Part shown: positions 479 through 53,401 of the stretch, one piece after another
Layout of the letters: the number at the start of each line of letters is the position of its first letter
Numbering within the stretch: the stretch's first letter is position 1
Source: a virus
Strand: one strand, 5' to 3'
DNA length: 64,000 nt
IMG/VR virus record: IMGVR_UViG_3300007512_000010
Location: 54,971 to 118,970 of that record
The notes under the pieces: generated by a model
Seen by the model: only the letters and a program-made list of their open reading frames with translations
Database searches by the model: none
Told to the model about the DNA's origin: nothing
Program-made: the position numbers and the translations under genes

Positions 479-501
479 ACCGTTTTTTGTTGCCCAAACC
501 C

Positions 502-515
502 CCCTAATATTAGGG
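502..515. promoter_or_regulatory. 14-bp perfect palindrome in leader (possible operator)
   Basis: CCCTAATATTAGGG is a perfect palindrome about 80 nt upstream of the ATG at 594. A near-palindrome with the same AATATT core (59407-59422) lies about 70 nt upstream of the scaffold-like gene at 59490. It could be a protein-binding site or an RNA hairpin in the 5' leader. The function is unknown. Confidence 0.3.
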
Positions 516-593
516 TTCGTTGAGATAGTAGGTCTTTCTCCTGCTGTCTTGTTTGTAAACGGCCTTGAATCAATAACACAGGAGATACAACTC

Positions 594-4257: not shown

Positions 4258-4266
4258 GAGCATATG

Positions 4267-13628: not shown

Positions 13629-13846
13629 GAGACATTCCTCCTAAAGGACAAAAAGGGTTTTACGAGAGAAACACCTATTGCTTCCCTTCACTATTCTTAT
13701 CCCTAAAAACACCCCTATTTTTGCACTTTTTGGGCATTTATTACGTAGTGATAATGGGTATTTTATTACGCTGTAATTATTAAATAATAAAAATTATTAT
13801 CGGAATGGTCTTCTTCAAGTATTAGCGCGTTCCATATAATCTAAAT
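13629..13846. other. AT-rich divergent intergenic region
   Basis: This is the most AT-rich stretch in the window, between divergent genes at 13628 (-) and 13847 (+). From about 13730 to 13800 it holds repeated TTATTACG and ATTATT units. CTTATCCCTAAAAAC at about 13695-13709 resembles the CTTATACC promoter-like motif. It must contain promoters in both directions. No gene was seen. Confidence 0.5.
13811..13846 (+). promoter_or_regulatory. sigma70-type promoter giving a leaderless mRNA (candidate)
   Basis: A perfect TATAAT sits at 13835-13840, only 6 nt before the ATG at 13847. No Shine-Dalgarno sequence precedes that ATG. A transcript starting 6-7 nt after the -10 box would begin at the start codon. 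The -35 region (around TCTTCA, 13812) is poor. CCATAT/ATATGG (13832-13837, 13845-13850) forms an inverted repeat across the start. Confidence 0.45.
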
Positions 13847-33296: not shown

Positions 33297-33340
33297 GATC
33301 ACTAACCTCCGAGTTAGGGTGTAGGTAAGGTAGCTAACAA

Positions 33341-33360
33341 AGTGCTTATACCAAAAAGGG
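33341..33360 (+). promoter_or_regulatory. candidate late promoter at the strand switch
   Basis: AGTGCTTATACCAAAAAGGG lies 23 nt before ATG 33383, at the start of the long plus-strand structural block. It matches AGTTCTTATACCTAAAACGG at 37417-37436 in 11 of the first 12 bases. No sigma70 -10/-35 pair is evident here. Confidence 0.45.
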
Positions 33361-35030: not shown

Positions 35031-37034
35031 ATGTCTAGTAATATTGGTCGTTACGTTTCAGGCGGTAGAGCCCGCGCATCCACGGTGGGCAGACCAGAAA
35101 AGTTCTACCCGAGTCCCTTTTTTGACGTTGCACAAAACTATCTACCCAAAACGATCAAAGATACTTTTGACTGGTGCTTGTACTACCAGCTTACTAATCC
35201 CCTGGTCAGCAGCATTACGCAGAAGCTCGCAACTTACGCCATTACCGACCTTATCTATGAGGACGATAACGAAGGCGTCACAGAGCGATACAAAGAGATC
35301 TTCGAAAAGCAGTTTTTGCTGCGGCAGTTCCTCGTAGAAACGAATCTAGATAGGTACACGTACGGCAATGCTTTTGTCTCCGTATCCTTCCCCTTTACAA
35401 AGGTTCTTACTTGTAAGGAGTGCAAGGCAGACTACGAGGCAAGGAAGATCAAGTACAAGTGGAAGAGCTATCAATTCCACATCACTTGCGACTCGTGCGG
35501 GCACGAAGGGATTGCTGGTGTAAAGGATGAGCCAGTAAAGGCTGGCCTACAGATTCGGCTTATTCGTTGGAATCCGAAGAACATCAAAATCAACTACAAC
35601 GAAATTACCGGGAAAAGCGAGTATTACTACGAGGTTCCTCGCTATATCAAAAACGATATCACCCTCGGTAAACCCTCAATCATCGAAACGGTGCCGCAGG
35701 CTTTTATCGAGGCAATGCGGAAGAAGAAGAGCATCCTTCTCGAAAGCTCTAAACTGTTTCACGCGAAACGTGCATCAATCTCAAGAGCCCCCTCCGATAG
35801 TGGCTGGGGTGCTCCACTCATCCTCCCAGTGCTTAAGGATATTTTCTTTCTACAGGTCTTGAGGAAAGCTCAGGAAGCTGTCGCCATGGAGCACATCGTC
35901 CCCATGCGGGTCATGTTTCCACAGGTAACTACAGACGGGAACAACCCTTACGCACACATCAATCTTCAGGATTGGCAGGAAGAGGTCTCTAGTCAGATTA
36001 AGAAGTGGCGGCAGGACAACAACCATATCCCGGTGATGCCTGTCCCCGTTGGCTACCAGATGATTGGCGGGCAAGGGCGGTCACTACTCCTCCACCAAGA
36101 ACTCCGAATTTATAATGATCAAATAATCGCTGGAATGGGTGTTCCCACTGGGTTCTTTTACGGAGAGCAGCAGTACTCAGGGGCCTCAGTGAATCTTAGG
36201 GCGCTAGAGAATGAGTTTTTGGGAAATCGGCAGGATATGCTTCGTCTCGTTGAGTTTATCCGTGATCGTGTGTGCGCTTTCTTGGATCTTCCTAAAATCA
36301 AACTGAAGTTCAAGCCATTCAAGATGGCTGACGACATCCAGCGAGCACAGTTTGATATGCAGCTTGCTGGCTCAAACATGATTAGTCGCAGAACCTTCTT
36401 GGAGTCCCGAGACTTTAACTTTGAGAGCGAGCAGGAACTTATCAGCACTGAACTGACGAAGATGAATAAGCAGCAGCGTGAGCAAATGATCGCACAGGCG
36501 AGCGCTCAGGGCGAAGCAATGCTCATCAATACTCGGTATCAGGGACAGGCTCAATTCCTACAGGCAGAGTCTCAGCAGGAGTTGCAACAGGCATTCCCGG
36601 AAATGGCCCAGCAACAAGCAGCCGCTCAACAGGGCGGTGGTGCTCCGCAACAAGGAGGCGCTCCGCCACAGCAAGGCGGCGGTGATCCAGCCGCCGCTCA
36701 ACAACAGGGGGCACCGCCTCCCGGAATGGAGCAACAGCAACAACAGCCGCCGCAACAAGAAGGCGGGCCTGTCCAAGGGGTGGAGCAGAGTCCGGTTCAG
36801 GCTCAACAAAACGGCGGCATGGTAGATATGTTTGCACAGGCCAAGCAACTCACCTCAGAGCTAAAAAAGATGAATGAGGTGGACAGGTATCGGGCCATGT
36901 CCCAAATCCGTGCAAGCAACCCTGATCTCTACATGTTGGTGAATAATGCCCTATCTGGGGCTGGCGTGAAGTCCATGAATCCCCTACCGGAGAAACTACC
37001 TTCACGCGCAGACCCAGATAGAGCGCAGGTTTAA
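35031..37034 (+). CDS. portal protein with Cys4 insert and Gln-rich tail (667 aa)
   Basis: The portal layout is clear. An N-terminal helical clip/stem region (FDWCLYYQLTNPLVSSITQK) is followed by long stretches including RAPSDSGWGAPLILPVLKDI, GMGVPTGFFYGEQQYSGASV and LRALENEFLGNRQDMLRLVE, typical of T4 gp20/SPP1-like portals. Two CxxC pairs (CKECKADY, CDSCGHEG) around residues 125-165 make a probable zinc ribbon inside the wing, unusual for portals. From about residue 500 the sequence becomes Gln/Gly/Pro-rich (QQGGGAPQQGG), a flexible tail. It forms the dodecameric DNA gate at the head vertex. RBS AGGGG. Confidence 0.88.
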   Translation: MSSNIGRYVSGGRARASTVGRPEKFYPSPFFDVAQNYLPKTIKDTFDWCLYYQLTNPLVSSITQKLATYAITDLIYEDDNEGVTERYKEIFEKQFLLRQFLVETNLDRYTYGNAFVSVSFPFTKVLTCKECKADYEARKIKYKWKSYQFHITCDSCGHEGIAGVKDEPVKAGLQIRLIRWNPKNIKINYNEITGKSEYYYEVPRYIKNDITLGKPSIIETVPQAFIEAMRKKKSILLESSKLFHAKRASISRAPSDSGWGAPLILPVLKDIFFLQVLRKAQEAVAMEHIVPMRVMFPQVTTDGNNPYAHINLQDWQEEVSSQIKKWRQDNNHIPVMPVPVGYQMIGGQGRSLLLHQELRIYNDQIIAGMGVPTGFFYGEQQYSGASVNLRALENEFLGNRQDMLRLVEFIRDRVCAFLDLPKIKLKFKPFKMADDIQRAQFDMQLAGSNMISRRTFLESRDFNFESEQELISTELTKMNKQQREQMIAQASAQGEAMLINTRYQGQAQFLQAESQQELQQAFPEMAQQQAAAQQGGGAPQQGGAPPQQGGGDPAAAQQQGAPPPGMEQQQQQPPQQEGGPVQGVEQSPVQAQQNGGMVDMFAQAKQLTSELKKMNEVDRYRAMSQIRASNPDLYMLVNNALSGAGVKSMNPLPEKLPSRADPDRAQV

Positions 37035-37309
37035 TGGACAAGAATTAGTATTGCCGAGGGGTTATCGCATCTGTCGCAAACGCCCCGTTGATAGTACGGG
37101 GAGGCCTTATCAGCTTTAACGACACATGCAGAGCAAACCCATCTAACGCAACCAGTGTTCTCAATGAAATGAGCACACGCCCCGCAATTCTTGGGTTCGT
37201 AGCACCAGATTCCGGCAACGTCACAAGCAATAGGTTTGGGGGCGCGAGTAGACATCGCTATCCGACGATCATCAGCGATGATTCTACGGCTGACGCGAAT
37301 AGTTCGCAT
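37031..37309 (-). CDS. small Cys-rich zinc-finger protein on the opposite strand (92 aa)
   Basis: It has CYEPKNCGACAHFIENTGCV, RWVCSACVVKADK and GVCDRCDN: eight or more Cys in CxxC-like spacing, so two zinc sites. The start is uncertain: ATG 37309 (frame limit) or ATG 37255, which has GGA about 5 nt upstream. It is the only minus-strand gene between portal and RNA polymerase and would be transcribed against them. A regulator of late transcription or a recent insertion are both possible. No family was recognised. Confidence 0.55.
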   Translation of the reverse strand: MRTIRVSRRIIADDRRIAMSTRAPKPIACDVAGIWCYEPKNCGACAHFIENTGCVRWVCSACVVKADKASPYYQRGVCDRCDNPSAILILVH

Positions 37310-37462
37310 GTGTTAAGACACCACATAAAGCACCTCTTTGACTATTGTTCCATGATTGTTAGAAAGATACACGCTGGTATACTCCTCTTATTTGGTTGGG
37401 AGCTACATTGCTCCATAGTTCTTATACCTAAAACGGGAGCGTAGTTAGCGCGGAGGCACCCA
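37310..37462. other. leader region before RNA polymerase gene with small hairpin
   Basis: This non-coding 153-nt stretch holds GGAGC-tacatt-GCTCC (37399-37414), a 5-bp hairpin, just before the promoter-like element at 37417-37439 and the GGAGG ribosome site. No other gene was seen. Confidence 0.4.
37417..37439 (+). promoter_or_regulatory. candidate promoter of the RNA polymerase gene
   Basis: AGTTCTTATACCTAAAACGG ends 27 nt before ATG 37463. Its similarity to 33341-33360 (11 of the first 12 bases) and partial similarity to 462-478 make it the best-supported phage-specific promoter candidate. A separate promoter here fits the reversed gene just upstream. Confidence 0.45.
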
Positions 37463-40400
37463 ATGGCAAACGTTCTAGATCCCCAGAGAGTTATGAAAGC
37501 TCTCGAAGACGGGACCGTAGAAAAAATAAATAGTTTTTTTCCACTAGTAGGCAAGAAGCAAACATTAGTAGCTCGTAATATCTACACCACGGGCGATACT
37601 GATTTAGATGATATTCCTTCGCAGAAAAAAGCTAGATTACGTGGACGAACATGGGCTCAGGGAGTCTATGGTGACTTTGAGTTAGTCGATAACGAGACCG
37701 GCAAAGTCATAGATAAGGTGGCTAAGGTTAAAGTTGCCGCTGTCCCGAAAATCACAAGAAGATATAGCTACATTGTCGATGGTACGGAGTATCAGGTAGA
37801 CAACCAGTGGCGGCTAAAATCCGGGGTGTACGCCAGACGTAAAGCCAACGGAGAGCTTGAGAGCCAGTTCAACCTAGCGGCTGGGCGGGGTTTCCGTTTG
37901 GGATTCGACCCCGCAAGACGAAGATTCTTAATGGGGTATGGAACGTCAAACGTTCAACTACTGCCCGTTCTACAAGCTTTGGGAATTCCGGATGAGGACA
38001 TCCGTGCTGCTTGGGGGGCTGAGCTATACGCACGGAGCGTCTCTGATAAAAAGCGGGGGGAGGTCGTTAAGCTCGCCAAGGCTCTTGTACGCGGTGCCGC
38101 CCCAGCAAACGATACTGAGGCTGCGGCAATCGTCAAAGAAGCGTACGACAAAACAGCGTTACTCAAAGATACAACAGCGATTACCCTGGGTGAAGGCTTC
38201 GATAAAGTCTCCGGTGGTGCGCTGCTAGCCTCTTCTAGAAAGTTATTAGCCATTAATAGGGGGGAGGCTGAGGTTGATAATCGGGACTCCCTTCGGTTTA
38301 AGGAGCTTTGGTCCATTGACAACCACATTCCCGAGCGGATTGGTAATTCAGCTAGAAGAATCCAGTATAAGCTAGGGAACAATATCGATAGGAAGGATAG
38401 CGTTCGCGCCATCGTTACACCGGATGTCTTCAACATCCCTATCAAAACCTTCTTTACGTCAACGTCGCTGTCCCAGCAAACAAGCCAAGTTAACCCGGTA
38501 GATATGATTGGTGGGTTCCTACGAACGACCATTATGGGGCAGGGTGGTATTTCTAATGAGCAGGCTGTTTCAGATGATGCAAAGCTTATTGACTCTAGCT
38601 TCCTAGGGTTTATCGATCCGGTGCACACACCAGAGGGCAAGCGTTCTGGTATCAGCGGGCATCTTGCTTTGGGTGTTAAGAAGGATGGGACGACGCCGTT
38701 AATCACTGTGTACGACACCAAGTCTGGGGCGTACGTGGATAAAAGCCCAGCAGACCTAGCTAATGCCGCCATCGCTTTCCCGGACCAGTACGACTTTTCT
38801 GGAAAGAAGCCTAAGGCCGTTGACAGCTTAGTAACGGTTGTCCGAAAAGACGGTGGGGATCCAGAGAAGGTTGCGCCTAATGAGGTCGATTACATCCTTC
38901 GGTCCCCCAAAGGCATGTTCTCCATCACAGCAAATCTGATCCCGTTCCTCCCTACGGATCAGGCTAATCGCGCTGGAATGGCTACCCGCCACATGGAACA
39001 AGCGGTAGCCCTAAAAGATCGAGAACAACCACTTGTGCAGGTAGTCTCCGGCAACCCGAGCAAACGGTTTAAAACGTGGGAAAACATTGTAGGTTCCTTC
39101 ACTAGTCACAACAGCCCAATCTCTGGGACTGTTCTGTCTGTTGGGGCCACCAAAATCGTTCTACAGGCGAAGGACGGTAGCAAGGTAGAGATGCCCCTCT
39201 ACGACAACTTTCCCCTGAACGACAAGAAGGCCTTTGTCAGCAGCACCCCCTTGGTTAAGAAGGGGGACACCGTCAAAGCTGGCCAGACACTCGCGGACAC
39301 CAACTTCACAAAAGACGGGACGCTGTCGATGGGCACGAACCTTAGGGTTGGCTACATCCCCTACAAAGGTTTGGTGTTTGAGGACGGCATCGTCATCTCT
39401 GAAACGGCGTCAAAGAAGCTGACTAGCGAGCATCTGCACAAAAATAGGGCGTACGTTGAAAAAAATATGCAGGTTGGGCTACGCAAGTTCCGGGCAAATT
39501 TCCCAGGCTCAGTAACGGACGATAACGCTGCCAAGCTGGATGAGGATGGTGTCATTAAGAAGGGCCAGCGGGTTGACCCAGGCGACACTTTGATGACGGT
39601 TCTCCAAAAGACAGAGCCCTCAAAAGAGCAGGCGATGTTGAAGGGAATCCATAAATCCCTGGTACGCCCCTTCAAGGACCGCTCTGTCACCTGGGAGAAG
39701 CCTTACGCCGGAGTCGTTACGGATGTTGTTCGTAATGGTCGAGAGATAATGGTCTACGTAAAGACCGAAGAACCCGCAGACGTAGGAGATAAACTCACAG
39801 GTAGGCATGGCAATAAAGGTGTTATTACTGCCGTAATACCTGATGAGGAGATGCCCAGAGATGCGGAAGGGAACCCACTCCAGTTGATTCTGAATCCTTC
39901 TGGTGTTCCGGGCCGAATCAATCTAGGGCAGGTCCTAGAGACCAGTTTGGCTAAGGTTGCTGACAAGCGGGGCGAGCCTTACGCAGTCGATAACTTTCAG
40001 GCTAGCGGAGGGAAAAAGATTGTCCGGGTTAAGGAGCACACCCGCACTATCCAGACAAAAGAAGGCCCTAAGCAAATAACGATTAAGGCCCACGACCGTG
40101 AAGTCGGCTACCAAGAGCAGGTAAAGAAGGTTCTTGCCGCAGAGGGCGTCTCTGAAACCACGGAGTTGTTCGATCCGGTCACAGGGAAGAGTCTGGGGCA
40201 AGTACTGGTAGGTAAGCAGTACACGCTTAAGCTGCTACATCAGATTGATAAGAAGCTCCGTGCTAGGGCACATGGTTACGGACACGACTACGACGCAAAC
40301 TTGGTTCCCAAGGGCGGTGGGGAAACCGGAGGCGCACAGCGGTTTGGCGAACTAGGTCTTTACGCCATGCTTGCCCACGGAGCTACAGCCAATATTCGGG

Positions 40401-43400
40401 ACGCACTGACCTACAAAAGCGATAAGCAACAGGATGAGATTTGGACAGCAGTCCAAACAGGCCAGATCCTCCCCAACCCAAAACCATCGTTCGCATATGA
40501 AAAATTCTTGGCGTACATGGGGGCTCTTGGTCTTAACGTGGAGAAGGAGGGGAATGGTCTTGTTGTCTCACCTCTCACGGATAAACAAATTCTTGAGACC
40601 TCTAACGGTGAGATTACCGATGGTAGTCGCGTAATTCGCGGCAAGGATCTAAAGCCAGAAAAGGGCGGTCTATTTGATGAGGACGTGACCGGTGGCCCAG
40701 GCGGTAATCATTGGGGGCACATCGCTCTTGGAACCTCTATGCCGAACCCCATGTTTGAAAAGGGTGTTCGGTCTTTGCTGGGACTGACTGGGAAAGAGTA
40801 CGACAGTGCTATTGCGGGAACGCATAAAGACATAGTCGGTCCTCAAGGAATCATTGCTGCCCTAGCTGCACTAAATGTGGATGAAGAGCTTGCCTCGGCT
40901 AAGGAACAGATAAAGACCGCTAGACGGGGTGAGCTAGATAAGCTGAACAAGAAGATTAAGTACCTGCTGATGCTCAAGAAGGAGGGCCTTTCCGCTGACA
41001 AGGCGTACGGAATAAGCAATGTGCCAGTCCTGCCCCCTATCTTTAGGCCCATTACCGCTATGGAGGGCGGGGATCTAAACATCGATGGTACAAACATGTT
41101 GTACCGCGATATCGCCATGCTCAACCAAAAGCTAAAGGAGGCCGATGGGGTTTTGCCCGAGTCCGCAACCGCGAAGCTCCGGGGCGACCTATACAATGCT
41201 GTGGATGCTTTGATGGGCGTGTCTACCCCTACAGAGGGGGCCATGACTATGGATGGTCAAGCAAGACCCCCCGGAATACTCACCATTCTCTCTGGCCGTC
41301 AATCGCCAAAGCAGAGCTTTTTCCACAAACGAATTCTGGATCGTAAGCAGGACATCTCCATGCGGTCGGTCATTGTTCCCGATATGGATCTGCACCTCGA
41401 CGAGTTAGGTCTTCCGAGGAAGGGGGCTATGAAGATCTACAGGCCCTTTGTGGTGAAGGAGCTTGTAAACATGGGGTATACGCCCCTCAAGGCTAGGGAA
41501 GAAATCGAGAAGAATAGTTCTTTGGCGAATAGAGCCCTTGAGGTTGCTGTTAACAAGCGCCCGGTACTTTTTAAGCGTGACCCAGTTCTACATAAGTTTG
41601 GGATCATGGCCTTTAAGCCAAAACTTCACGATGAGAAGTCCATCCACATCCACCCTCTGGTGACCGGTGGGTTCAATGCTGACTTTGACGGGGACACAAT
41701 GGCCATCTTTGTGCCCGTATCCCAAGAGGCCGTCGATGAGGCGCATAAAATGCTGCCCTCAAAGAACCTGTTCAACCCTGCTACTGGGAGGGTGATGTAC
41801 CAGCCGAGCCTAGAGGGCCAGTTAGGGCTCTACCTGCTTACCCAAATGGGGAAGAAGACGAGAACTAAGTTTGCCGATGCTAAAGAAGCATTAGCCGCCG
41901 CAGAGGCTGGAGATATTCTAGCTACTGATGTTGTGTCTGTTGGGGGATTACGAACAACGGCGGGAAGAATATTATTCAATAATGCCTTGCCGAAAAAGGT
42001 TCAATCTGAAGAAATCCTCACAGACCCTAAGCTGATTATGGGGAAGGGTGTCCTCCAAAACATCTTGCGCCAAGTAGCTGTGAAAAGCCCCGCAGAGTTC
42101 CAAGCCACAGCAGACAAGATAAAGAATCTTGGCTTTGGTCATGCGTACGACACCGGGTTCTCGTTTGATTTGGATGACTTCAACACTCTCACAGAGCTTC
42201 GCAATAGCAGGATGAAAGTTGCGCGGGCTAAGGAAACAGCCATCAGGAAAAAGGAGAAGATGAAGCTCATCTCTCCTAGCGCCGCCGAAGCTCAAATTAT
42301 CGACCTGTATACCAAGGTGACAGAAGACCTGTCGTCAGAAGCTAAGAAGATTCTAGACAAAGATGGAAACAAACTCAGAGCTATGAACAACGCAGGAGTC
42401 AAACCCGCTTGGTCGCAGCTACAGCAGATGCTTATCGGACCCATGCTTCTAGAGAATGCGAGCGGTCGGGTTATTCCTGTGCCTGTAGACAGGTCATATT
42501 CCGAAGGTCTGCGTTCTTCTGATTACTGGGTCGCTTCATCTGGTGCGCGTAAGGGCCTCATTGAGAAGGTACAGTCTGTATCTGTTCCGGGGGCACTGAA
42601 TAAACAAATAGCCAACACGGCTATTAGCTACGTAGTTACACAGAATAATTGTGGTACGAAGCGGGGGATTGCCCTAGATATTGGCGACTCAGATTTAGTT
42701 GATCGGTTTACTGCTAAAGCCTTTAAGGCTGGGGGATCCACGGTCCCCGCAGGTACGGCCATAACCCCTGCGCTGCTTTCTAAGCTAAAGGCCTCAAAGG
42801 TCTCTAAAGTTGTGGCTAGATCGCCTATGAAATGTGAGTCCAAGAAGGGGCTGTGTTCTCACTGCTATGGGCTCATGGATGGTGGAAGGCCTGTTGAGGT
42901 GGGGACCAATATCGGGCTTATTGCCGGAACCGCATTGGGGGAACGCGGCACACAGTTGTCTATGAAGACATTCCATACGGGCGGTGTGGCCGGGTCTTCT
43001 GCGGGTGTCGTTGGTGGCATTGACCGGATTAGCCAACTTCTGAAGATGCCCGCAACGCTACCTAACGCAGCAGTACTTTCTCCAGCTACCGCTGAGGTAA
43101 GCAAGGTGACTAAGAGCCCTGTCGGTGGTTTTGATATCTCTATTGGTAACGAGGACATCTATGTTCCGGCTGGGCGAACGATCAGTATCGGTGTTGGGGA
43201 CAAGGTTAGGAAGGGCCAGCAGATTTCAAGTGGTGTAATTGAGCCCCGAGACCTATTGGCAAAGACCAACGTAGACACAGTCCAGGCGTACATCGCTGAC
43301 GAGATCAACAAGGTGTATAAGAGCGAAGGGATTAAACGAAGGAACATTGAGGTGGTCACCAAGGCGGTAACCAACCTCGGGCGGGTCACTGACCCTGGAG

Positions 43401-43696
43401 ACTCCTCGTTTATCAAGAATGACTACATCTCTTTATCACACGCTGCTGCCCTCAATCGTTCTGGCAAAATGAAAGCCCCGATCAGAGTGCAGCCGATGCT
43501 CCGTGGTATCGAGACACTTCCTCTGGATCAGAGTACAGACTGGATCGCTAGGCTTCAGTACCGAAAACTTAAAGAAACCTTTATTAGGGCTGCGAATGAG
43601 GGATGGGAGTCTGATCTTCACGGAACACACCCCGCCCCAGGCATCGCTTATTCCGCTGAATTCGGTAAGCCTAAAGATAGCGGAGGCCCTTATTAA
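37463..43696 (+). CDS. rpoBC: single-chain beta-beta' DNA-dependent RNA polymerase (2077 aa)
   Basis: One uninterrupted chain carries beta landmarks then beta' landmarks. Beta: FFTSTSLSQQTSQVNP (res 330), HTPEGKRSG, IPFLPTDQANRAGMA, YKGLVFEDGIVISE, GDKLTGRHGNKG (775-786, both catalytic-site lysines), LNPSGVPGRINLGQ, QRFGELGLYAMLAHG. Beta' (from about 1080): GHIALG, VLPPIFRPI, RQSPKQSFFHKRILDRKQDI, NADFDGD (1405-1411, catalytic Asp triad), GARKGL bridge helix (1694), C1730/C1791/C1798/C1801 zinc site, and trigger loop GTQLSMKTFHTGG (1829-1841). It is about 670 aa shorter than E. coli beta plus beta'. SI3 and the N-terminal beta' zinc finger are absent. GGAGG lies 6 nt before ATG. No alpha, omega or sigma gene is in the window. 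Confidence 0.97.
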   Translation: MANVLDPQRVMKALEDGTVEKINSFFPLVGKKQTLVARNIYTTGDTDLDDIPSQKKARLRGRTWAQGVYGDFELVDNETGKVIDKVAKVKVAAVPKITRRYSYIVDGTEYQVDNQWRLKSGVYARRKANGELESQFNLAAGRGFRLGFDPARRRFLMGYGTSNVQLLPVLQALGIPDEDIRAAWGAELYARSVSDKKRGEVVKLAKALVRGAAPANDTEAAAIVKEAYDKTALLKDTTAITLGEGFDKVSGGALLASSRKLLAINRGEAEVDNRDSLRFKELWSIDNHIPERIGNSARRIQYKLGNNIDRKDSVRAIVTPDVFNIPIKTFFTSTSLSQQTSQVNPVDMIGGFLRTTIMGQGGISNEQAVSDDAKLIDSSFLGFIDPVHTPEGKRSGISGHLALGVKKDGTTPLITVYDTKSGAYVDKSPADLANAAIAFPDQYDFSGKKPKAVDSLVTVVRKDGGDPEKVAPNEVDYILRSPKGMFSITANLIPFLPTDQANRAGMATRHMEQAVALKDREQPLVQVVSGNPSKRFKTWENIVGSFTSHNSPISGTVLSVGATKIVLQAKDGSKVEMPLYDNFPLNDKKAFVSSTPLVKKGDTVKAGQTLADTNFTKDGTLSMGTNLRVGYIPYKGLVFEDGIVISETASKKLTSEHLHKNRAYVEKNMQVGLRKFRANFPGSVTDDNAAKLDEDGVIKKGQRVDPGDTLMTVLQKTEPSKEQAMLKGIHKSLVRPFKDRSVTWEKPYAGVVTDVVRNGREIMVYVKTEEPADVGDKLTGRHGNKGVITAVIPDEEMPRDAEGNPLQLILNPSGVPGRINLGQVLETSLAKVADKRGEPYAVDNFQASGGKKIVRVKEHTRTIQTKEGPKQITIKAHDREVGYQEQVKKVLAAEGVSETTELFDPVTGKSLGQVLVGKQYTLKLLHQIDKKLRARAHGYGHDYDANLVPKGGGETGGAQRFGELGLYAMLAHGATANIRDALTYKSDKQQDEIWTAVQTGQILPNPKPSFAYEKFLAYMGALGLNVEKEGNGLVVSPLTDKQILETSNGEITDGSRVIRGKDLKPEKGGLFDEDVTGGPGGNHWGHIALGTSMPNPMFEKGVRSLLGLTGKEYDSAIAGTHKDIVGPQGIIAALAALNVDEELASAKEQIKTARRGELDKLNKKIKYLLMLKKEGLSADKAYGISNVPVLPPIFRPITAMEGGDLNIDGTNMLYRDIAMLNQKLKEADGVLPESATAKLRGDLYNAVDALMGVSTPTEGAMTMDGQARPPGILTILSGRQSPKQSFFHKRILDRKQDISMRSVIVPDMDLHLDELGLPRKGAMKIYRPFVVKELVNMGYTPLKAREEIEKNSSLANRALEVAVNKRPVLFKRDPVLHKFGIMAFKPKLHDEKSIHIHPLVTGGFNADFDGDTMAIFVPVSQEAVDEAHKMLPSKNLFNPATGRVMYQPSLEGQLGLYLLTQMGKKTRTKFADAKEALAAAEAGDILATDVVSVGGLRTTAGRILFNNALPKKVQSEEILTDPKLIMGKGVLQNILRQVAVKSPAEFQATADKIKNLGFGHAYDTGFSFDLDDFNTLTELRNSRMKVARAKETAIRKKEKMKLISPSAAEAQIIDLYTKVTEDLSSEAKKILDKDGNKLRAMNNAGVKPAWSQLQQMLIGPMLLENASGRVIPVPVDRSYSEGLRSSDYWVASSGARKGLIEKVQSVSVPGALNKQIANTAISYVVTQNNCGTKRGIALDIGDSDLVDRFTAKAFKAGGSTVPAGTAITPALLSKLKASKVSKVVARSPMKCESKKGLCSHCYGLMDGGRPVEVGTNIGLIAGTALGERGTQLSMKTFHTGGVAGSSAGVVGGIDRISQLLKMPATLPNAAVLSPATAEVSKVTKSPVGGFDISIGNEDIYVPAGRTISIGVGDKVRKGQQISSGVIEPRDLLAKTNVDTVQAYIADEINKVYKSEGIKRRNIEVVTKAVTNLGRVTDPGDSSFIKNDYISLSHAAALNRSGKMKAPIRVQPMLRGIETLPLDQSTDWIARLQYRKLKETFIRAANEGWESDLHGTHPAPGIAYSAEFGKPKDSGGPY

Positions 43697-45153
43697 TGTC
43701 TGAATTTCAAGATGGTATGGGGCAAACTCCTGGGTTTGCTGACAGGCCCGCGAAGGTGCACCTAGCTCTGGTACAGAGTGTGAACGTGCAAGAGTTTACT
43801 TGTGACTTGATGACGATTTACACGCATAAGGCATTGGTGGATGTTCCTTTTGCTGCTGGGTATTGTCATCAAGATCATGTTGGTGGGTTGTACTGGATGC
43901 CGGAAGTGAACTCACACTGTTATGTGTGTGAGTGTGCCGATGGGACGTCCTTTATCCTCTCGTTCATCATAAACGCACAGCCAGCCGTTGTCCCGGAGCA
44001 CATGGCTGAGTTGGACGGCCCAAGCGCAGAATTGATTGAAGAGTCCGCTGATGCTGGGCCGAACTTCCGGGCAATGCGGGAGAACCTAGAACCCGGCGAC
44101 ATTTACATGGGTGCTATTGACGGTAATCATGTCATTGTTCGGCGTGGTGGGATGGTACAAATCGGCGCTACTGGGTTAGCGCAGCGCGTCTACCTGCCCA
44201 TCGAGAATTTAGTACGCGACTACTTCCAGAGATACCAAGCCTACAGCCCCGTTGGAGAGATTGAATGGGGCCACGCACAACTAGTTGAGGGCGAAACGCC
44301 CACAGAGGTTCTAGGCTACTTGTCTTCTGATTTGTTGGAGGAGGCCGATAAGAGCAAGGCTCTGAGCGCGGCAGCAGAGACGCCGGTGATGGTTCGGTAC
44401 AACATAAAAGATTTGTGCCAAGAGGACGTTAAGGAAGGCAAGTACACTGTAGAGCTTCGTATTGGTCGTTTAACTCCAGAGGTCTTAGATACCGAGGAGG
44501 ATGCTGAACATGAGTTTGGTTATTTGGGGCACAAAGCCACCAAGGATCGAGTTGATCAGCCAGTACGGTTAACGGGTAGCCACAAAGCTAAAGGTATTAG
44601 AAAAGAGTCCAAGGGCATCCTCAGCCTTACCATCTACAACCATGACCCCGAGAAGGATACGAACACCGAGACCAAGGATTCCGTTTGCTACGCCTTCCAA
44701 CTAAATCGAGAAGGGGATGCACTTGTTTTCACAAAGGGGCATATACACGCTGAGATAGACCAGACACTATATGCGCGTGTTAATAAAGGTATCAAGGTTG
44801 TTTACGGTGGTGACGGTGGGAGCGAAGATACCAAGGAAAATAAGCAGAGTATCCTTGAATTATTAGACACTAATGAGTTTGAAGCTCAAGTAAAATCAGT
44901 ATTATTCAAGGTGCTGGAAGAGATGGATTTCCAGGTTAAGGGCGATGTCCTTATTCAGGGAGAGGCAAATATTCAGTTGGGAACCAACAGTGACGAACTA
45001 CAAGGGGTGGTTCGTTGGCAGGATTTAAAGACTTGGCTAGAGAGCAAGTTCTCATGCGCTACCCCGGCTGGTCCTAGCGGACCCGTCCTCCCTAGCGCGA
45101 CAGTTACGTTTGAAGATGATGTAGCGTCTAAGACAGTAAAGGCTAAAAAGTAA
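43696..45153 (+). CDS. baseplate hub/spike-like protein (485 aa)
   Basis: ATG overlaps the RNA polymerase stop (TAATG), with GGAGG upstream. The N-terminal ~100 residues form an OB-fold-like unit (VHLALVQSVNVQEFTCDLMT, VDVPFAAGYCHQDHVGGLYW). EPGDIYMGAIDGNHVIVRRG and MVQIGATGLAQRVYLP follow, reminiscent of gpV/gp45-type spike and baseplate-assembly proteins, where short strands of Gly-containing repeats wind into a triple beta-helix. The C-terminal part has 'dvliqGeAniqlG'-type strands. It is likely at the tail tip. Confidence 0.6.
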   Translation: MSEFQDGMGQTPGFADRPAKVHLALVQSVNVQEFTCDLMTIYTHKALVDVPFAAGYCHQDHVGGLYWMPEVNSHCYVCECADGTSFILSFIINAQPAVVPEHMAELDGPSAELIEESADAGPNFRAMRENLEPGDIYMGAIDGNHVIVRRGGMVQIGATGLAQRVYLPIENLVRDYFQRYQAYSPVGEIEWGHAQLVEGETPTEVLGYLSSDLLEEADKSKALSAAAETPVMVRYNIKDLCQEDVKEGKYTVELRIGRLTPEVLDTEEDAEHEFGYLGHKATKDRVDQPVRLTGSHKAKGIRKESKGILSLTIYNHDPEKDTNTETKDSVCYAFQLNREGDALVFTKGHIHAEIDQTLYARVNKGIKVVYGGDGGSEDTKENKQSILELLDTNEFEAQVKSVLFKVLEEMDFQVKGDVLIQGEANIQLGTNSDELQGVVRWQDLKTWLESKFSCATPAGPSGPVLPSATVTFEDDVASKTVKAKK

Positions 45154-45742: not shown

Positions 45743-47713
45743 ATGGAACTTACCAGAAAATTAAAAGGACCACACTTCGAGAAGGTAGCTGCCAAGTTCC
45801 TTCTCGGGGATAACCCGTCCACTTACCCCAGTGAGTTGATCGCTCATCTGTACAAGCAGCACCCCTACCTGGGTAAGTATCAGGTGAACATCTCTGTCCA
45901 AGGGCAGGATGAGAGCCAAGGATACATGTATGGTGTATTCCTCGTCAGCCAGCCCAGCGATGTTCCACCCCCAGAGGGAACACAGCAGATGGGACAGATG
46001 ATTAGTCAGGGTCAACCAGAGCCAGATCCGAACAATAGTGTTCGTATCCCGATCATTGTGGAGAATAAGAAGGCGTACTCCTACGACGTTTTCATCACTC
46101 CCGATGGTAGGTTCTTGCCCCTAAACGAGATGCGCGTTGCAGCGGCGATGTTTGATGCGGGTCCGTACTCCATCGCTCCTGTTCCCAAAGCACTAGGGGC
46201 GTCGGCTAACCAGAACGTTAACCCCGCTGAGCCCGAGGGTATGAGTGGTGGTGGTCCCCTTTCCCCAAACCAGTCAGTTAAGCAGGCTTCTGCATTTGCT
46301 GGTGTGTCATTGGGCAAAGAGGTGGTTGAGAAGTTCTTCAACAAGATTGCGGCTAGTGAGCGTCTTGTTGATGCGGCTGATCTAAATCCCGCGTTTTCAT
46401 CAGTGTTGTCCAAGTTGGCACACTCCGTAGAAAACCAGCCCGTTGAGAGTGCGCCCACAACCTCTGATTTTGAGGCAGCGGTTGTCTGTAAAGTTGGCGG
46501 CGGCTACCTGATTAAAACCGCAAGCTCTAACGGGTTTGAGGTTTCTACACACAAGCTCCGCAACAAGGACGCGGCGACCCTTCCCAGGGAGGTTCGAAAT
46601 AGTGTGGTGAAGACAGGATCCGTATTATTAGCTGATAATACTGAAGCGCTACCTAAAATCGAGGTGACCAAAGATCTAGAGGTTATTGATGAAACCGGTG
46701 TGTTCTCTGTCCTAGATAAGTACGGCAGTGCGCGACGAGCCGCAGTGATCACCGATGTTCTCACCCTGGACGGGCGGGAATCCGACCTTCGTCTGGTTGT
46801 TGGGTCTAGCGGAGCCGCTTTTCAGGCTAAGGTAGCTGGTGTTCGTTGTGGGGATCTTGACCTAAACGCTCTCGAAGGCTCGGCCCCAATAGGGGAGGGA
46901 GTCTTTGTGTTTAAGACGGCAGGTAAGGTTTCGGAACCATTGACCGTAAACCACGCGGTGACGGATGCGAACGGGGAGACTTCGTACATCTACGAAACCC
47001 CCCTACAGGGACGGGGAACGCTCAAGCTGGCGTCGGTGCGGATTCCTGTCGGCCTTGGTGGGCGTGATTTCCTAATTCCCGAAGACAGTGTGTTTGTGCC
47101 TATGACCTTTAACGGGAGCTACCGGTCAGACACCACGCAGATTGAGAAGATTTCGGCCAGAACCGACTATATCAATAAAGTTAAAATCATTAGCGATGGG
47201 ACAGAATTTAGCTTTGAGGGAGCCCCGGTAAAAGATCTAGAGAAGAGGGCCTTCTTGAAGTTGGATGAGGCGCTTCTGGTACTGGGTGTTCTCGGAGATT
47301 CTTCAGAAGGAGCTATGACTAAGTTAGCTCATGCGGCTGATAAGGGAGAAGAGGTTTTCGTCGCTAGTCGTAGGATTCTAGCGCCAACGATTGAGTTGGG
47401 CTCGAATGACGAAGCCGCGCAAATTGCGTCGGTGATTAGGATGGATTTGGTCAAGGAGGCTGCGGTTCTAAACAACTCGGAGACAGTTGACTCCGTATTA
47501 TCACTTAACTTTATTACGCCAGAAAACGTCCAAGGATACTTGGATGCTCTACCTGTTTTTGAGGAATCTGCCTCTAAGCTGGCTGAGCTACTTGTTGGCG
47601 TTCGACTTGGTTTGTCAGATATTCCTGAGCCTGCGGTAGCGTCATCCCTTTCTGGCATGGAGCGTGCGATTACTGGGCTTAAGAAGCTGCAGATCAGGTC
47701 TAATACTATGTAA
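45743..47713 (+). CDS. large virion protein with many K-[TLIV]-A motifs (656 aa)
   Basis: AGGAG lies 8 nt before ATG. The first ~130 residues form one beta-rich domain (YQVNISVQGQDESQGYMYGV, YSYDVFITPDGRFLPLNEMR). The remainder is a series of beta domains with repeated tetrapeptides FEKVA, FNKIA, LSKLA, LIKTA, VFKTA, MTKLA and SKLA. I recognise no family. The motif is shared with the scaffold genes next to the prohead protease, so processing by that enzyme is a possibility. Located among tail and internal virion genes. Confidence 0.6.
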   Translation: MELTRKLKGPHFEKVAAKFLLGDNPSTYPSELIAHLYKQHPYLGKYQVNISVQGQDESQGYMYGVFLVSQPSDVPPPEGTQQMGQMISQGQPEPDPNNSVRIPIIVENKKAYSYDVFITPDGRFLPLNEMRVAAAMFDAGPYSIAPVPKALGASANQNVNPAEPEGMSGGGPLSPNQSVKQASAFAGVSLGKEVVEKFFNKIAASERLVDAADLNPAFSSVLSKLAHSVENQPVESAPTTSDFEAAVVCKVGGGYLIKTASSNGFEVSTHKLRNKDAATLPREVRNSVVKTGSVLLADNTEALPKIEVTKDLEVIDETGVFSVLDKYGSARRAAVITDVLTLDGRESDLRLVVGSSGAAFQAKVAGVRCGDLDLNALEGSAPIGEGVFVFKTAGKVSEPLTVNHAVTDANGETSYIYETPLQGRGTLKLASVRIPVGLGGRDFLIPEDSVFVPMTFNGSYRSDTTQIEKISARTDYINKVKIISDGTEFSFEGAPVKDLEKRAFLKLDEALLVLGVLGDSSEGAMTKLAHAADKGEEVFVASRRILAPTIELGSNDEAAQIASVIRMDLVKEAAVLNNSETVDSVLSLNFITPENVQGYLDALPVFEESASKLAELLVGVRLGLSDIPEPAVASSLSGMERAITGLKKLQIRSNTM

Positions 47714-48838: not shown

Positions 48839-49622
48839 ACGACAAGAGGCCCCTGGGTATCTGACAACCTTAGGCAAAGCCGCTCCCTTTTTTCTTGCTA
48901 AGTCCGTTTTGGGAGATCTTCCAAAAGGTGGGATTGAGAAAGCAATCGAGTTGAAACTAGGTCCCAAGAAGGTACCCCTACGGAAGGGCTTCATGAAGGG
49001 GATTTCTGGTAGGGGCTCTGGCCGTGCGATTGGGGCAATGAGCGGAATTGTCACTGCTCCCCTATACCTAAAGAGTCTTAGCCTCTTAAAGTCTAAGAAG
49101 AAGAGCGACCGCAAGAAGGGGCTGGCCCTCCTAGTAGGGGTTACGAGCACTTTCACAGTACAGAAGGGGATGCTTGAGAGCATCGGTGAGCAGGGTGGAA
49201 TCTCGAAAGCTATTCGACGCCGAGTTAGTCGCCTCCCTGCTAAAGCTTCTGGCACTTCTTTGAAGAAGGCCCTCGGTCTTGGGGTGGGCAGGCTCTCCTA
49301 TAAGATCCCTTCCGCTTTGATTATGGCGAAGGGCCTCACAAGCGGTGGCGGCAAAGGCAAGGGTAAGAAGAATAAAGCTCTTATGTCCGCTGCCTTGGGC
49401 GGGGCTGGGGCTGGTGCGCTTAGCCGTGCGGGCGATACCATCATTAAGGAACTTACCGCGAAGTCAACCAGCAAGGCGTACAAGTTCAACCCAGGCATCT
49501 TCGGCAAGAAGATGATGGCGGGTGGTGTAGGCGGTGCAGCAGCAGGGGCGCTCGGTGGGCTAGTCCTATCCAAAGCGATTTCTGCAGCGAACAAGTCCTT
49601 GTCCGGTGGTAAGAAGAAGTGA
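48831..49622 (+). CDS. basic, Gly/Ala-rich putative internal virion protein (263 aa)
   Basis: A perfect AAGGAGG precedes ATG 48831. The product is very basic, with Lys clusters (SLLKSKKKSDRKKG, GKGKGKKNKA). It also has two glycine-zipper-like hydrophobic segments: AALGGAGAGALSRAG and GVGGAAAGALGGLVLSKA. These features are seen in phage ejection or DNA-associated internal proteins that insert in membranes. It lies immediately before the SNF2 ATPase and overlaps its start. Confidence 0.55.
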   Translation: MAKRQEAPGYLTTLGKAAPFFLAKSVLGDLPKGGIEKAIELKLGPKKVPLRKGFMKGISGRGSGRAIGAMSGIVTAPLYLKSLSLLKSKKKSDRKKGLALLVGVTSTFTVQKGMLESIGEQGGISKAIRRRVSRLPAKASGTSLKKALGLGVGRLSYKIPSALIMAKGLTSGGGKGKGKKNKALMSAALGGAGAGALSRAGDTIIKELTAKSTSKAYKFNPGIFGKKMMAGGVGGAAAGALGGLVLSKAISAANKSLSGGKKK

Positions 49623-51406
49623 GGTTTTTCCTTAAATGCGCCGCCGAGGTCGCTCAGGAAGTGCAACACGGTACGGGTATTCCCGCGCTTAAAGAGTGGT
49701 TTAAACCGTATGAGCACCAAGCAAAAGCGATAGAGCGTCTGTACGCAAATAAGGGAAAAATGATTCTCGCCCACGAGATGGGCACGGGGAAAACCGCTAC
49801 AAGCATTTACGGATTTGAGAAGCTACGTCACGATGGGAAAGCAAAGAAGGCGCTAGTAGTTGTTCCCTCTGGCTTACGGGCCAACTTTGCGGATGGCGGT
49901 GTTCGAAAGTTCACCACTAGCAGCGTTCAGATTGTTGGCTCGCCTGCTGAAGTTCGGAAGAAGGACGGCTACGTACGCCCAGGTAGCGAGGGCAACGCTG
50001 ATTACACAATCATAAGCTACGCCCAGTTTCGGAAGGACCCAAAAGGGTTCATGGAGCGAACCGGGGCTGACACTCTGATTTTAGATGAGTTCCACAAGAC
50101 TAGAAATGAATCCGCATCAACGTTTAAAGCGGCAGTAGAGGCTCGAAGGTACGCGGTCAACTTCATGGGGCTGACAGCCTCTTTGATCAACAACCGCCCT
50201 TCTGAAATTGCCTCGTTGATGACCATCTCCGAGAACAACCGAGAGATGACGCCCCAGCAATTCAGACGAAGGTTCACCAAGACTGTTGGGACAGCAAAGG
50301 GTTTTGGTGGTGGGAAGAAGAAGATTCGCGGCTACCAGCGGGTTGAGGAGCTAAAGGCCCGGACACAACCGAGAATAGACTACATTGAGACGGGTGATCT
50401 TAAGGGCAAAACGATGCCCCGGAAGGATGTGCGGAATGTGGACGTGGAGATGTCCCCCGCACAGTACGATCTATACCAGCTAGCTCTGGATAAGCATCCA
50501 GCGATTAAAGAGATGCTTATGCGTAGAGACAAGAACATCACCGTCAAGGATGCGAAGTTCATCTTCGCCCAGATCGCGGCGGCTCGACAGGTTGCTAACT
50601 CTGTGCACACCGGAAGATCAGACGTGACTGCAGCGCAATCCGCTCAGCAGACACCAAAGGCTAAAAAGGTACTGGATGACACGGCGCAGCATCTCACAGA
50701 GAAGCCCGACAACAAGGTTGTCCTGTACAGCAACTTGGTACGTGGTGGTGTGGACGTCCTATCTGCTGGCCTAAAAGCTCGCGGTATCGATCATGCCGTG
50801 TTTGTTGGCAAAGGAACAACCGTTGGTGAGAACAAGGTCACTGCCCTGACAAGACAACAGGGAGTGAAGGACTACCAAGCAGGCAAGAAGAAAGTAATCA
50901 TCCTAAGCGGTGCTGGTGCGGAAGGCCTCGACCTGAAGAACTCTACTGCGTTTTACGCGTTGGACGGGCACTTCAACCCGCAACGGATTCTTCAGGCGGA
51001 AGCCCGTGCCCGTAGACTCGGTGGGCAGCAACACCGTGCCGTTGAGAACCGGGCGGTAGATGTTCGACGGTACAGAAGTACTGTGCCCAAGGCAGCTAGA
51101 CCAGGATTTATTGGTCGAGCGATGGGTAAGAAGACCCCCCAAACCACAGACGAATGGATGTACGGAGTTGCTGGGCGAAAGTTCAAGCAGCAGAAGGACT
51201 TCTACACAGCCTTTAAAAAGCCTACTAAATTTATCTATAAGTATAGAGACAACACAACAGGGAAGATGCGTTATGTTTACCCGAAACAAAAGGCCCCAAA
51301 ACAAGGGTTCTTCAGTAAATTATTTGGAGGTAAATCGCCTTCTAGACCAACTCCAAGCCAAACTAGCCAGCACTCAGCCACCCAGGCTGCGGTTAGCGCA
51401 AGCTGA
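49619..51406 (+). CDS. SNF2/SWI2-family ATPase (595 aa) in the structural block
   Basis: GTG start overlaps the previous TGA. Motifs: Q-like KPYEHQAKAIERLY, Walker A LAHEMGTGKTATS, motif Ia VVVPSGLRANF, DEFH box LILDEFHKTRNES, motif III GLTASLINNRP, motif IV VVLYSNLVRGG, motif V IILSGAGAEGLDLKN and motif VI RILQAEARARRLG. This is the SNF2/RapA style of double-stranded DNA translocase. The C-terminus is a basic tail (FIYKYRDNTTGKMRYVYPKQ). The host RapA recycles RNA polymerase. The closeness to the phage polymerase suggests a similar partnership (inference). A virion-carried helicase is another option. Confidence 0.88.
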   Translation: MRFFLKCAAEVAQEVQHGTGIPALKEWFKPYEHQAKAIERLYANKGKMILAHEMGTGKTATSIYGFEKLRHDGKAKKALVVVPSGLRANFADGGVRKFTTSSVQIVGSPAEVRKKDGYVRPGSEGNADYTIISYAQFRKDPKGFMERTGADTLILDEFHKTRNESASTFKAAVEARRYAVNFMGLTASLINNRPSEIASLMTISENNREMTPQQFRRRFTKTVGTAKGFGGGKKKIRGYQRVEELKARTQPRIDYIETGDLKGKTMPRKDVRNVDVEMSPAQYDLYQLALDKHPAIKEMLMRRDKNITVKDAKFIFAQIAAARQVANSVHTGRSDVTAAQSAQQTPKAKKVLDDTAQHLTEKPDNKVVLYSNLVRGGVDVLSAGLKARGIDHAVFVGKGTTVGENKVTALTRQQGVKDYQAGKKKVIILSGAGAEGLDLKNSTAFYALDGHFNPQRILQAEARARRLGGQQHRAVENRAVDVRRYRSTVPKAARPGFIGRAMGKKTPQTTDEWMYGVAGRKFKQQKDFYTAFKKPTKFIYKYRDNTTGKMRYVYPKQKAPKQGFFSKLFGGKSPSRPTPSQTSQHSATQAAVSAS

Positions 51407-51545: not shown

Positions 51546-51759
51546 TTTTCACAAGCCCTCTTTTTGTATTTATGGAGACCCTGGCTCTCGGTATGTATTC
51601 ACCAATGAACTCTTTTAAGAGCTTTTTATTATGTTGTGATATTGGGGGCCACAGCTTAAGAACGTATGTGTTCTCGGCATCTTCTTTATAGGAAACAAGG
51701 TCGTTTCCAAGTGCCCTAGATAAGGAACCCACTAAACTAGTTACGGTATCTTTGATCAT
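51526..51759 (-). CDS. small protein on opposite strand (77 aa), start shared with terminase
   Basis: Start ATG 51759 overlaps the terminase ATG (51758) in the sequence CATG; an upstream in-frame start would run into the terminase coding region. The product is MIKDTVTSLVGSLSRALGND, then YVLKLWPPISQHNKKLLKEF and a basic end VSINTKRGLVKITLRPR. It has a compact beta-alpha-beta appearance. It is the second of two minus-strand genes inside the late block. Function unknown. Confidence 0.5.
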   Translation of the reverse strand: MIKDTVTSLVGSLSRALGNDLVSYKEDAENTYVLKLWPPISQHNKKLLKEFIGEYIPRARVSINTKRGLVKITLRPR

Positions 51760-53401
51760 GTCTTTACTCGATGAACAATCAGCAGCTTTTGAGAGGGATA
51801 ATAATCTCTTTCCTAGCGAGTTTGTATCATCTTTCTTCAATATGCCCAGCTTGGGAGAGTTGGAGCATTTTTCGTTTAAAGGCAGGCGTTACCTGATCCC
51901 TATCTATGACACACCTTCCCAGAGACTGCTTCTTCAGTGTGGCCGACAGGTAGAGAAGAGCACAACCCTAGGGAATATTACGCTAACATACTCGACTTTG
52001 AGAAGGCACTTTAGGTCGCTGTTCGTAAGCCCCACTCAGCAGCAGACTGAAACATTCTCAAGGGATAGGATACAGACACCTATAGAACTCTCCCCCACAC
52101 TACAAACTTTTGCAGAGGGAGCGAATACCAAGAACAACGTTCTGTACAAGAAGTATGTGACAGGCTCAGACATCACTATGCGGTATGCCTTTTTACACGC
52201 AGATCGCGTGCGCGGTATCTCTGCTGACATGCTTTTGTTGGATGAGATTCAGGACATCCTTACAGACATCATCCCAATTATTGAGGAGGCGTTGTCGCAC
52301 TCCCCGTTCAAGATTCTTCGCTACTCCGGTACGCCGAAGAGCTTGGACAACACCATCAGCTACTATTGGAACCAATTCAGCACCCAAAATGAGTGGGTTG
52401 TTCCATGTGAGGGCTGTAACACTTGGAATGTTCTGGGAGAAGACAACATTGGTGCCCAGGGGTTGATCTGTAAAAAATGCGGGAGGGCCATACATGCGGA
52501 TCATCCAAGGGCTCAATGGGCGTCCATGCGGTCACCCCAATGGCTGAAGCACCCACCGGTTACGACGCCTTTTGAGGGGTACAGAATCCCACAGTTAATT
52601 GCTCCTTGGGTGCGTTGGGACGATATTCTCGATAAAAGGAAACGGTACAGTCGCGCTCAGTTTTTTAATGAGGTTTTGGGCGTTGGTTACGATTCTGGTG
52701 AGAAACCTATCAACAAGGAATCTCTGATAAAGTGCTGTAATCAAGAACGACCAAACACACTGGAGTTCGCGACTAAATTCGTTAAGGGCCGTAATCGAAA
52801 AGTCTATCTAGGGATTGATTGGGGTACAGGAGAGAATACTTATTCCGTACTTGTTGCTGGGTGTTATATCGGCCGCATCTTTACTATCATCTACTGTAGA
52901 CGGTATGAGGGTGAAGACGGCAGTCCAGAAAACCTTATGAACGACATTGCCAAGCTGATGGATAGATTCGAAGTTCGCATAGCTGGGGTTGACTACGGGG
53001 GTGGATTTGACCGTAATGACCGGCTGATAAGGCAGTTTGGGATTGCCCGTGTTGCGAGGTATCAGTACGTAAATGCTAAGAGAATCTACTTCGACAAAAG
53101 CCTCCATAGGTTTATGGTTAATAGGACGGAGGCGTTGATGGCGGTTATTAACGCAATTAATCGTGAGGACGAATTAGCCTTCCCTAAATGGGAAGATTTT
53201 GAAACACCCTTTGGAAGCGACCTCTTATCTGTATTTACAGAGTACAACGAGGCGCGAAGAACGACTATTATTAATAGGACACCGGGTACAACAGATGATA
53301 CTTTGCACGCAATTACCTACTGTTTTCTGGCGTCTATGATAGAACACCCAAGACCTGATATTATTAGCCCGTCAGGGGATGATAAGCATGATAGAGGTTA
53401 G
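51758..53401 (+). CDS. terL: terminase large subunit (547 aa)
   Basis: ATPase: Walker A CGRQVEKSTT (phage-type GRQxxKS), Walker B DMLLLDEIQD with the catalytic Glu, and a coupling SGTPKS motif. Nuclease: GIDWGTGENT, IAGVDYGGG and TDDTLHAITY supply the RNase-H-like metal site. Between the domains a Cys4 pair (CEGCNTWN, CKKCGRAI) forms a zinc ribbon, as in some large-phage terminases. ATG 51758 has no obvious ribosome site; a TTG at 51752 is also open. It packages DNA through the portal. Confidence 0.95.
   Translation: MSLLDEQSAAFERDNNLFPSEFVSSFFNMPSLGELEHFSFKGRRYLIPIYDTPSQRLLLQCGRQVEKSTTLGNITLTYSTLRRHFRSLFVSPTQQQTETFSRDRIQTPIELSPTLQTFAEGANTKNNVLYKKYVTGSDITMRYAFLHADRVRGISADMLLLDEIQDILTDIIPIIEEALSHSPFKILRYSGTPKSLDNTISYYWNQFSTQNEWVVPCEGCNTWNVLGEDNIGAQGLICKKCGRAIHADHPRAQWASMRSPQWLKHPPVTTPFEGYRIPQLIAPWVRWDDILDKRKRYSRAQFFNEVLGVGYDSGEKPINKESLIKCCNQERPNTLEFATKFVKGRNRKVYLGIDWGTGENTYSVLVAGCYIGRIFTIIYCRRYEGEDGSPENLMNDIAKLMDRFEVRIAGVDYGGGFDRNDRLIRQFGIARVARYQYVNAKRIYFDKSLHRFMVNRTEALMAVINAINREDELAFPKWEDFETPFGSDLLSVFTEYNEARRTTIINRTPGTTDDTLHAITYCFLASMIEHPRPDIISPSGDDKHDRG

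Follow-up and report, generated by a model that had tools for sequence, protein, structure and literature searches.

Phage RNA polymerases (RNAPs) of the two-barrel type are known in several forms. Single-chain enzymes are represented by gp66 of the crAss-like phage phi14:2, YonO and gp64/gp96 of P23-45, some of which are virion RNAPs that use early promoters (PMC10770324), and in phiKZ and AR9 a two-barrel RNAP works without alpha or omega (PMC7598289). Multi-subunit RNAP-encoding Caudovirales (mReC) were obtained by screening the 2018 version of IMG/VR at a score of at least 80 (Weinheimer and Aylward 2020, PMC7481178). That paper describes beta and beta' as two separate subunits, with a fusion noted for crAssphage only. 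The present analysis concerns a window of 64,000 nucleotides, the final 64 kb of a 118,970-base virus contig (IMG/VR record IMGVR_UViG_3300007512_000010), and within it a single ATG-start open reading frame (ORF) of 2077 amino acids on the plus strand (37463-43696), which encodes RNAP beta followed by beta'. The fusion is conserved across a phage lineage. We consider it moderately probable that its product is a functional single-chain RNAP that works without alpha, is made late, is probably packaged and transcribes early genes from a promoter of the lineage.

The identification as a fused beta-beta' RNAP is based on Pfam, phmmer and NCBIfam. The Pfam domains of the beta part occur in the order Rpb2_3 (residues 340-403), Rpb2_6 (554-938, E = 1e-55) and Rpb2_7 (957-996), followed in the beta' part by Rpb1_1 (1141-1255), Rpb1_2 (to 1431), Rpb1_3 (1435-1572) and Rpb1_5 (1682-1863). 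The top phmmer matches in the PDB were bacterial beta' chains (T. thermophilus, 2e-116). NCBIfam models scored 544 bits for rpoC, 346-409 bits for rpoB and at most 123 bits for archaeal models, the rpoB and rpoC scores lying below the bacterial equivalog cut-offs. Alignment with E. coli RpoB and RpoC divides the chain into a beta moiety (amino acids 1-1035, 37463-40567, plus strand; best Foldseek match to bacterial beta, E = 2e-49) and a beta' moiety (amino acids 1036-2077, 40568-43693, plus strand; best match to bacterial beta', E = 6e-48). The gene is preceded by a ribosome-binding site, GGAGG (37452-37456, plus strand), which is kept in relatives. A first-pass annotation of the window had described a single 2077-residue beta-beta' chain that is phage-encoded, bacterial in sequence type and small. 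Frame and domain order confirmed this description, and all motifs that it named are present.

The active site is intact. Alignment placed the two active-site lysines of beta in GDKLTGRHGNKG (39785-39820), the catalytic motif NADFDGD at 41675-41695, the bridge helix core GARKGL at 42542-42559 and the trigger loop TQLSMKTFHTGG at 42950-42985, all on the plus strand. With respect to E. coli, the catalytic aspartates, E813/D814, K1065, K1073 and R1106 of beta, and R425 and the trigger-loop H936 of beta' are kept. Among the relatives described below, DFDG occurs in all 225 complete fused frames and the trigger-loop motif FHxGG in 221 of them. The hallmarks of a bacterial-type two-barrel RNAP, namely DxDxD, the paired beta lysines, the bridge helix and the trigger loop, are recognizable in the sequence, and the fused chain is very probably catalytically active.

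Other parts of the protein depart from a cellular enzyme. The identity to bacterial subunits is approximately 28-30%. At the junction between beta and beta' (40538-40582, plus strand, by alignment) almost no linker is present, and the end of beta, GLNVEKEGN, directly abuts the start of beta', PLTDKQIL...LKPEKGGLFDE. Bacterial beta' usually carries an N-terminal zinc domain (Zn1). In the fused chain this domain is deleted and replaced by a few residues (LFDEDVTGGPGGNHW, 40673-40714, plus strand, by E. coli alignment). The same 19-residue segment occurs in 217 of the 225 fused frames, and Zn1-type cysteines were found in none of them. The C-terminal four-cysteine zinc site that had been noticed at the outset is kept and corresponds to beta' Zn2 (C1730, C1791, C1798 and C1801, spanning 42650-42865, plus strand). 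All four E. coli rifampicin-site residues compared (D516, H526, S531 and I572) are altered in the fused chain, and resistance to rifampicin is therefore predicted. Neither R275 nor E295, through which E. coli beta' contacts sigma, is conserved; the alignment is loose in this region. The initial label "near-canonical" holds with reservations, given the overall identity, the deleted Zn1 domain and the substitutions at sigma-contact and rifampicin positions.

Four IMG/VR scans recovered relatives with approximately 25-100% identity, one of them counting 340 and another 484. Among the matches listed, the loci that were classified include at least 225 in which one frame encodes the entire enzyme, corresponding to at least 124 distinct proteins at 99.5%, and 32 whose fused frame is incomplete owing to a contig end or a later split. 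No classified locus in which the boundary is visible is split between beta and beta'. Two further IMG/VR contigs encode the 2077-residue chain at 100% identity. The fusion is real, and it is a trait of a lineage, not a peculiarity of this phage. An assembly error, named beforehand as a possible refutation, is contradicted by the recurrence of the frame in many distinct proteins.

Cultured relatives with approximately 30% identity are the Vibrio phages D69, D148 and D181 and the Salmonella phage Arash. In D69 and Arash the enzyme is divided between a first ORF (about 1525 amino acids), which covers beta and the part of beta' up to and including the catalytic barrel, and a second one (about 610 amino acids) with the remainder; in the Arash-type C-terminal ORF the bridge helix and trigger loop are degenerate. 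The frames of L070, L071, L183, L184, L191 and L196 break after the beta' barrel, at Q1120 or Q496, and never between beta and beta'. RNAP frames of more than 2400 amino acids (L046, L050, L055, L069 and L035) contain in-frame inserts at Q392, at Q778/789 in the region of the GDK motif, and at Q1410 inside NADFDGD. All four inserts scanned matched LAGLIDADG and one additionally gave an intein-splicing match; the inserts are probably inteins. Among the remaining loci, L017 (near 8145) is a close relative whose frame is interrupted by one stop near Q303, probably through a sequencing error, and L208-L218 are highly fragmented relatives, contigs with just short, highly diverged beta N-terminal fragments (25-31% identity to Arash), which matched no known RNAP type well enough for an assignment. 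The lineage contigs L220 and L221 were binned in bacterial metagenome-assembled genomes (GTDB: uncultured bacterium and Deltaproteobacteria bacterium).

A tree of 37 rows and 2019 columns was calculated with IQ-TREE (LG+C20), using 14 bacteria as sole outgroup. The phages are separated from the bacteria by a long stem with a Shimodaira-Hasegawa approximate likelihood-ratio (SH-aLRT) support of 100. Placement inside a bacterial rpoBC clade, which had been named as a possible refutation, was not observed, the phage clade lying outside the sampled bacteria. The split phages form one clade (SH-aLRT 98), and two fully fused rows diverge close to the phage base. Bacteria, split and fused groups are likewise separate in a FastTree analysis of 82 rows. 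With a fully fused clade and an Arash/D69 clade that is split further downstream, the fusion is apparently an ancestral lineage trait. Fusion first and splits later is the simplest reading of a tree whose root is unproven, bacteria being the only outgroup.

In bacterial RNAP, alpha brings beta and beta' together. A single RNAP per genome was found in all 23 lineage records, and alpha (PF01193) had no match in any of these 23 in a search whose positive control matched 13 of 14 genomes. Sigma70 region 2 was not detected in the genome of the window.

When the RNAP upstream regions of 14 relatives were aligned, a conserved block, CATNNTTCTTATACC, emerged, which is enriched genome-wide (14 gene-upstream matches vs 0-2 for column-shuffled matrices). 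A two-part motif, (G)CAAAA-N15-GGTATAAGAANNNTG, is common to phages with fused and with split RNAPs, including the isolates Arash and D69. Across the 23 RNAP phages (a few near-duplicates among them) 155 motif sites were counted, compared to 5 for the backwards pattern, whereas T4, phiKZ, N4, RHph_TM30, YerA41 and Vibrio phage 1.031.O combined showed no excess (4 vs 12 in the control). The A-rich (G)CAAAA is positioned about 15 nt upstream of GG, and the spacer to TATAAG is near 17 nt. In the annotated Arash genome, the majority of sites precede early genes of the minus strand, or a tRNA, by about 6-50 nt and have the opposite orientation. A ribosome-binding site and start codon follow within 60 nt at 54 of 79 sites in the GGTATAAG sense, compared to 15 of 79 when the motif is read the other way and 0 of 4 in the control. 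Judged from these sequence patterns, the active sense is GGTATAAGAANNNTG, pointing away from the RNAP gene. A function of CATNNTTCTTATACC as the late promoter of the RNAP gene itself was ruled out by the gene orientation in Arash and the two-way sense test. The motif is the same in genomes where a sigma gene was detected and in those where none was, and this speaks against recognition by a phage sigma alone. A scan of the whole collection with the two-part pattern gave mostly apparent chance matches, 6 of the 80 listed contigs encoding a lineage RNAP.

The window contains three candidate early promoters on the minus strand, all pointing leftwards. GGTATAAGAACTATG (37414-37428) points away from the RNAP gene and has a -35-like element, GCTAAC, at 37444-37449. 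GGTATAAGCACTTTG (33338-33352) points into the minus-strand replication block, with a ribosome-binding site and start codon 35 nt downstream, and GGGATAAGAATAGTG (13689-13703) has a -35-like GCAAAA at 13719-13724. Inverted repeats of at least 5 bp adjoin the motif at 38 of 101 sites vs 12.6 in shuffles; a narrower test on sites upstream of the RNAP gene was negative. An N4-like hairpin promoter is not favoured, as the corrected sense puts the inverted repeat in the leader RNA. Early mRNAs may start with a 5' hairpin, the repeats lying just downstream of GGTATAAG sites at many loci.

The RNAP gene is located on the late strand inside the structural block, between portal and baseplate genes as had been proposed; both calls are supported, and nearly all relatives share the arrangement. 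The portal-like protein immediately upstream (35031-37034, plus strand, assigned by homology and neighbourhood) has homologues upstream of RNAP in 211 loci. The Arash homologue, just upstream of its RNAP, is annotated as portal, and SPP1_portal matched 2 of 12 homologues (best 1e-4). An internal CxxC...CxxC ribbon (C128, C131, C153 and C156), unexpected for a portal, is invariant in 12 homologues. The portal and RNAP genes flank a small ORF of 92 amino acids with several CxxC pairs (37031-37309, minus strand), located downstream of the promoter at 37414. The start of the baseplate-spike-like gene (43696-45153, plus strand, assigned by matches to baseplate families) overlaps the RNAP stop (TAATG). 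A homologue is directly downstream of RNAP in 219 of 237 loci, and the phrog baseplate assembly profile matched 5 of 8 homologues. Further downstream on the plus strand follow a conserved block protein of 656 amino acids (45743-47713), present downstream of RNAP in 217 of 237 loci, and, identified by profile matches, an SNF2-type helicase (49619-51406) and the terminase large subunit (TerL, 51752-53401). Most structural genes of the window had no match in PHROG and Pfam searches. Two very long plus-strand ORFs, 4264-12915 (2883 amino acids) and 411-3407 (998 amino acids), without a PHROG match, probably encode tail or other structural proteins.

The working model proposed here starts from an ancestor of the lineage in which bacterial-type beta and beta' chains would have been joined end to end. 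Because both barrels reside in one chain, assembly without the alpha platform would be possible. The RNAP would be expressed from the late strand, in translational coupling with the baseplate gene, and packaging in the virion would be its most likely fate. After injection, the packaged enzyme would transcribe early and replication genes from (G)CAAAA-N15-GGTATAAGAANNNTG. The steps differ in strength. That the chain works without host alpha seems somewhat more probable than its use of host alpha, which is also possible. Packaging in virions may or may not occur, the balance being about even, and the same balance holds for recognition of the candidate promoter by the fused RNAP itself. The far-reaching version, in which the whole lineage has a virion-packaged, alpha-free, single-chain RNAP that recognizes the two-part promoter without sigma, with an ancestral fusion and secondary Arash-type splits, is rather doubtful.

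Several observations weigh against the proposed model. Packaging is argued from the position of the gene. Some members may use sigma, as sigma70 region 2 was detected in 6 of the 23 records, Arash and D69 among them, and one further record had sigma region 4 alone above the cut-off. The AlphaFold2 half-models of beta and beta' reached mean predicted local distance difference test (pLDDT) scores of 62 and 69, so that the predicted structures back a bacterial fold of each half at no more than moderate confidence. Finally, host RNAP could read the promoter, with TATAAG near the sigma70 -10 element and a spacer of about 17 nt to the -35-like element. This host-like geometry, together with the location on the late strand inside the structural block and the single RNAP per genome, would also fit a non-virion late polymerase that serves the late genes of the infection in which it is made, with the early GGTATAAG promoters left to host RNAP. 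We regard this explanation as unlikely, although it deserves attention: the promoter is common to phages of different hosts (Salmonella, Vibrio and metagenomes), its -35-like element differs from TTGACA, and the motif is not in excess in the six phages without this RNAP. Nor was a late promoter motif found, although no search aimed at one was made. The sigma-like geometry of the two-part promoter, the sigma70-type genes and the overall close similarity to bacterial beta and beta' would also suit a hybrid enzyme, in which the chain takes the place of host beta and beta' but relies on alpha and omega of the host and on a host or phage sigma, making it an altered host-type holoenzyme that is not self-sufficient. 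Such a hybrid is distinctly improbable, as the beta' sigma contacts are not conserved (within the loosely aligned region), most genomes have the same promoter but no detected sigma, and phiKZ and AR9 cores work without alpha (PMC7598289).

A catalytically dead relic or an RNAP-derived structural protein might be suspected from the structural-gene neighbourhood and from the degenerate bridge helix and trigger loop in the C-terminal part of Arash and D69. The invariant catalytic aspartates and nearly invariant FHxGG of the fused frames speak against this, as do the probable inteins in catalytic motifs, their usual place in active enzymes, and we consider it very unlikely. Nothing was found in favour of an assembly artefact or a recent host rpoBC fragment. 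Both are ruled out, with practically negligible residual probability, by the recurrence of distinct fused proteins in many metagenomes, by their conserved phage neighbours and by the fully supported, long-stemmed separation of the phage clade from bacteria. The alpha-free, single-chain RNAP of the working model would provide a natural test bed for the minimal needs of an RNAP core, in a lineage where one of the two beta' zinc domains is consistently missing. In its single-chain, sigma-free reading, if true, the enzyme would serve as a natural, compact model of the core of bacterial RNAP. Should the fusion be ancestral, it would provide a structural marker for the origin and later fragmentation of phage polymerases, alongside the ancient clade of phage RNAPs that has been claimed in the literature. 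As the sequenced isolates Arash and D69 share the enzyme and the promoter motif, the questions of virion, sigma and alpha are open to direct experiment.

Phage RNAPs of one chain and rpoBC fusions of bacteria have both been described, so the enzyme belongs to a known kind. A compact phage fusion of bacterial type that characterizes a lineage, the Zn1 loss and the shared promoter are apparently unreported; no report was found in the searchable open-access literature, which is not proof of absence. The RNAPs of Arash, D69, D148 and D181 are homologous to that of the window and share the fusion of beta with the N-terminal part of beta', the Zn1 loss, the promoter motif and a portal gene just upstream. 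They differ in the separate ORF for the C-terminal part of beta', in AADYDGD instead of NADFDGD and in their low identity. Bacterial rpoB-rpoC fusions (NCBIfam PRK09603, 2890 amino acids, and PRK14844, 2839 amino acids, the Helicobacter and Wolbachia types) likewise have beta followed by beta' in one chain, but they are cellular and approximately 800 amino acids longer. The window chain scored 546.7 and 501 bits with these models, compared to equivalog cut-offs of 5372 and 4632. The phi14:2 gp66, YonO and P23-45 enzymes form a divergent group with QDE-1 and phage single-subunit polymerases, a class expected to give no recognizable beta/beta' model matches, whereas the window chain can be aligned over most of the length of both bacterial subunits and gives strong rpoB and rpoC matches. 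In phiKZ and AR9 the RNAPs consist of several chains and two RNAPs occur per phage, in contrast to one chain in one copy here.

For mReC, PMC7481178 gives the major capsid protein family PF07068 for 8 contigs and TerL of family PF03237 for 17 contigs, as a trait and not a definition; in the parts read, no promoter is reported. The mReC resemble the present lineage in being tailed phages with a bacterial-like, alignable RNAP that forms a clade outside cells, contains NADxDGD and is encoded beside structural genes. Here both subunits match bacterial models (NCBIfam in place of COG0085/COG0086), NADxDGD is present, and the RNAP clade is apart from cells in a comparison with bacteria only. PF07068 had no match in the 23 records in a search that also lacked any positive-control match. 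The TerL of the window matches PF05876 only, unlike the PF03237 TerL of mReC, and the lineage was therefore not filed as mReC. The first-pass annotation had suspected that the lineage is partly known, and this is probably right. The mReC screen should have picked up proteins of this kind, and the lineage probably overlaps the mReC phages (PMC7481178), either as the same group or as their sister.

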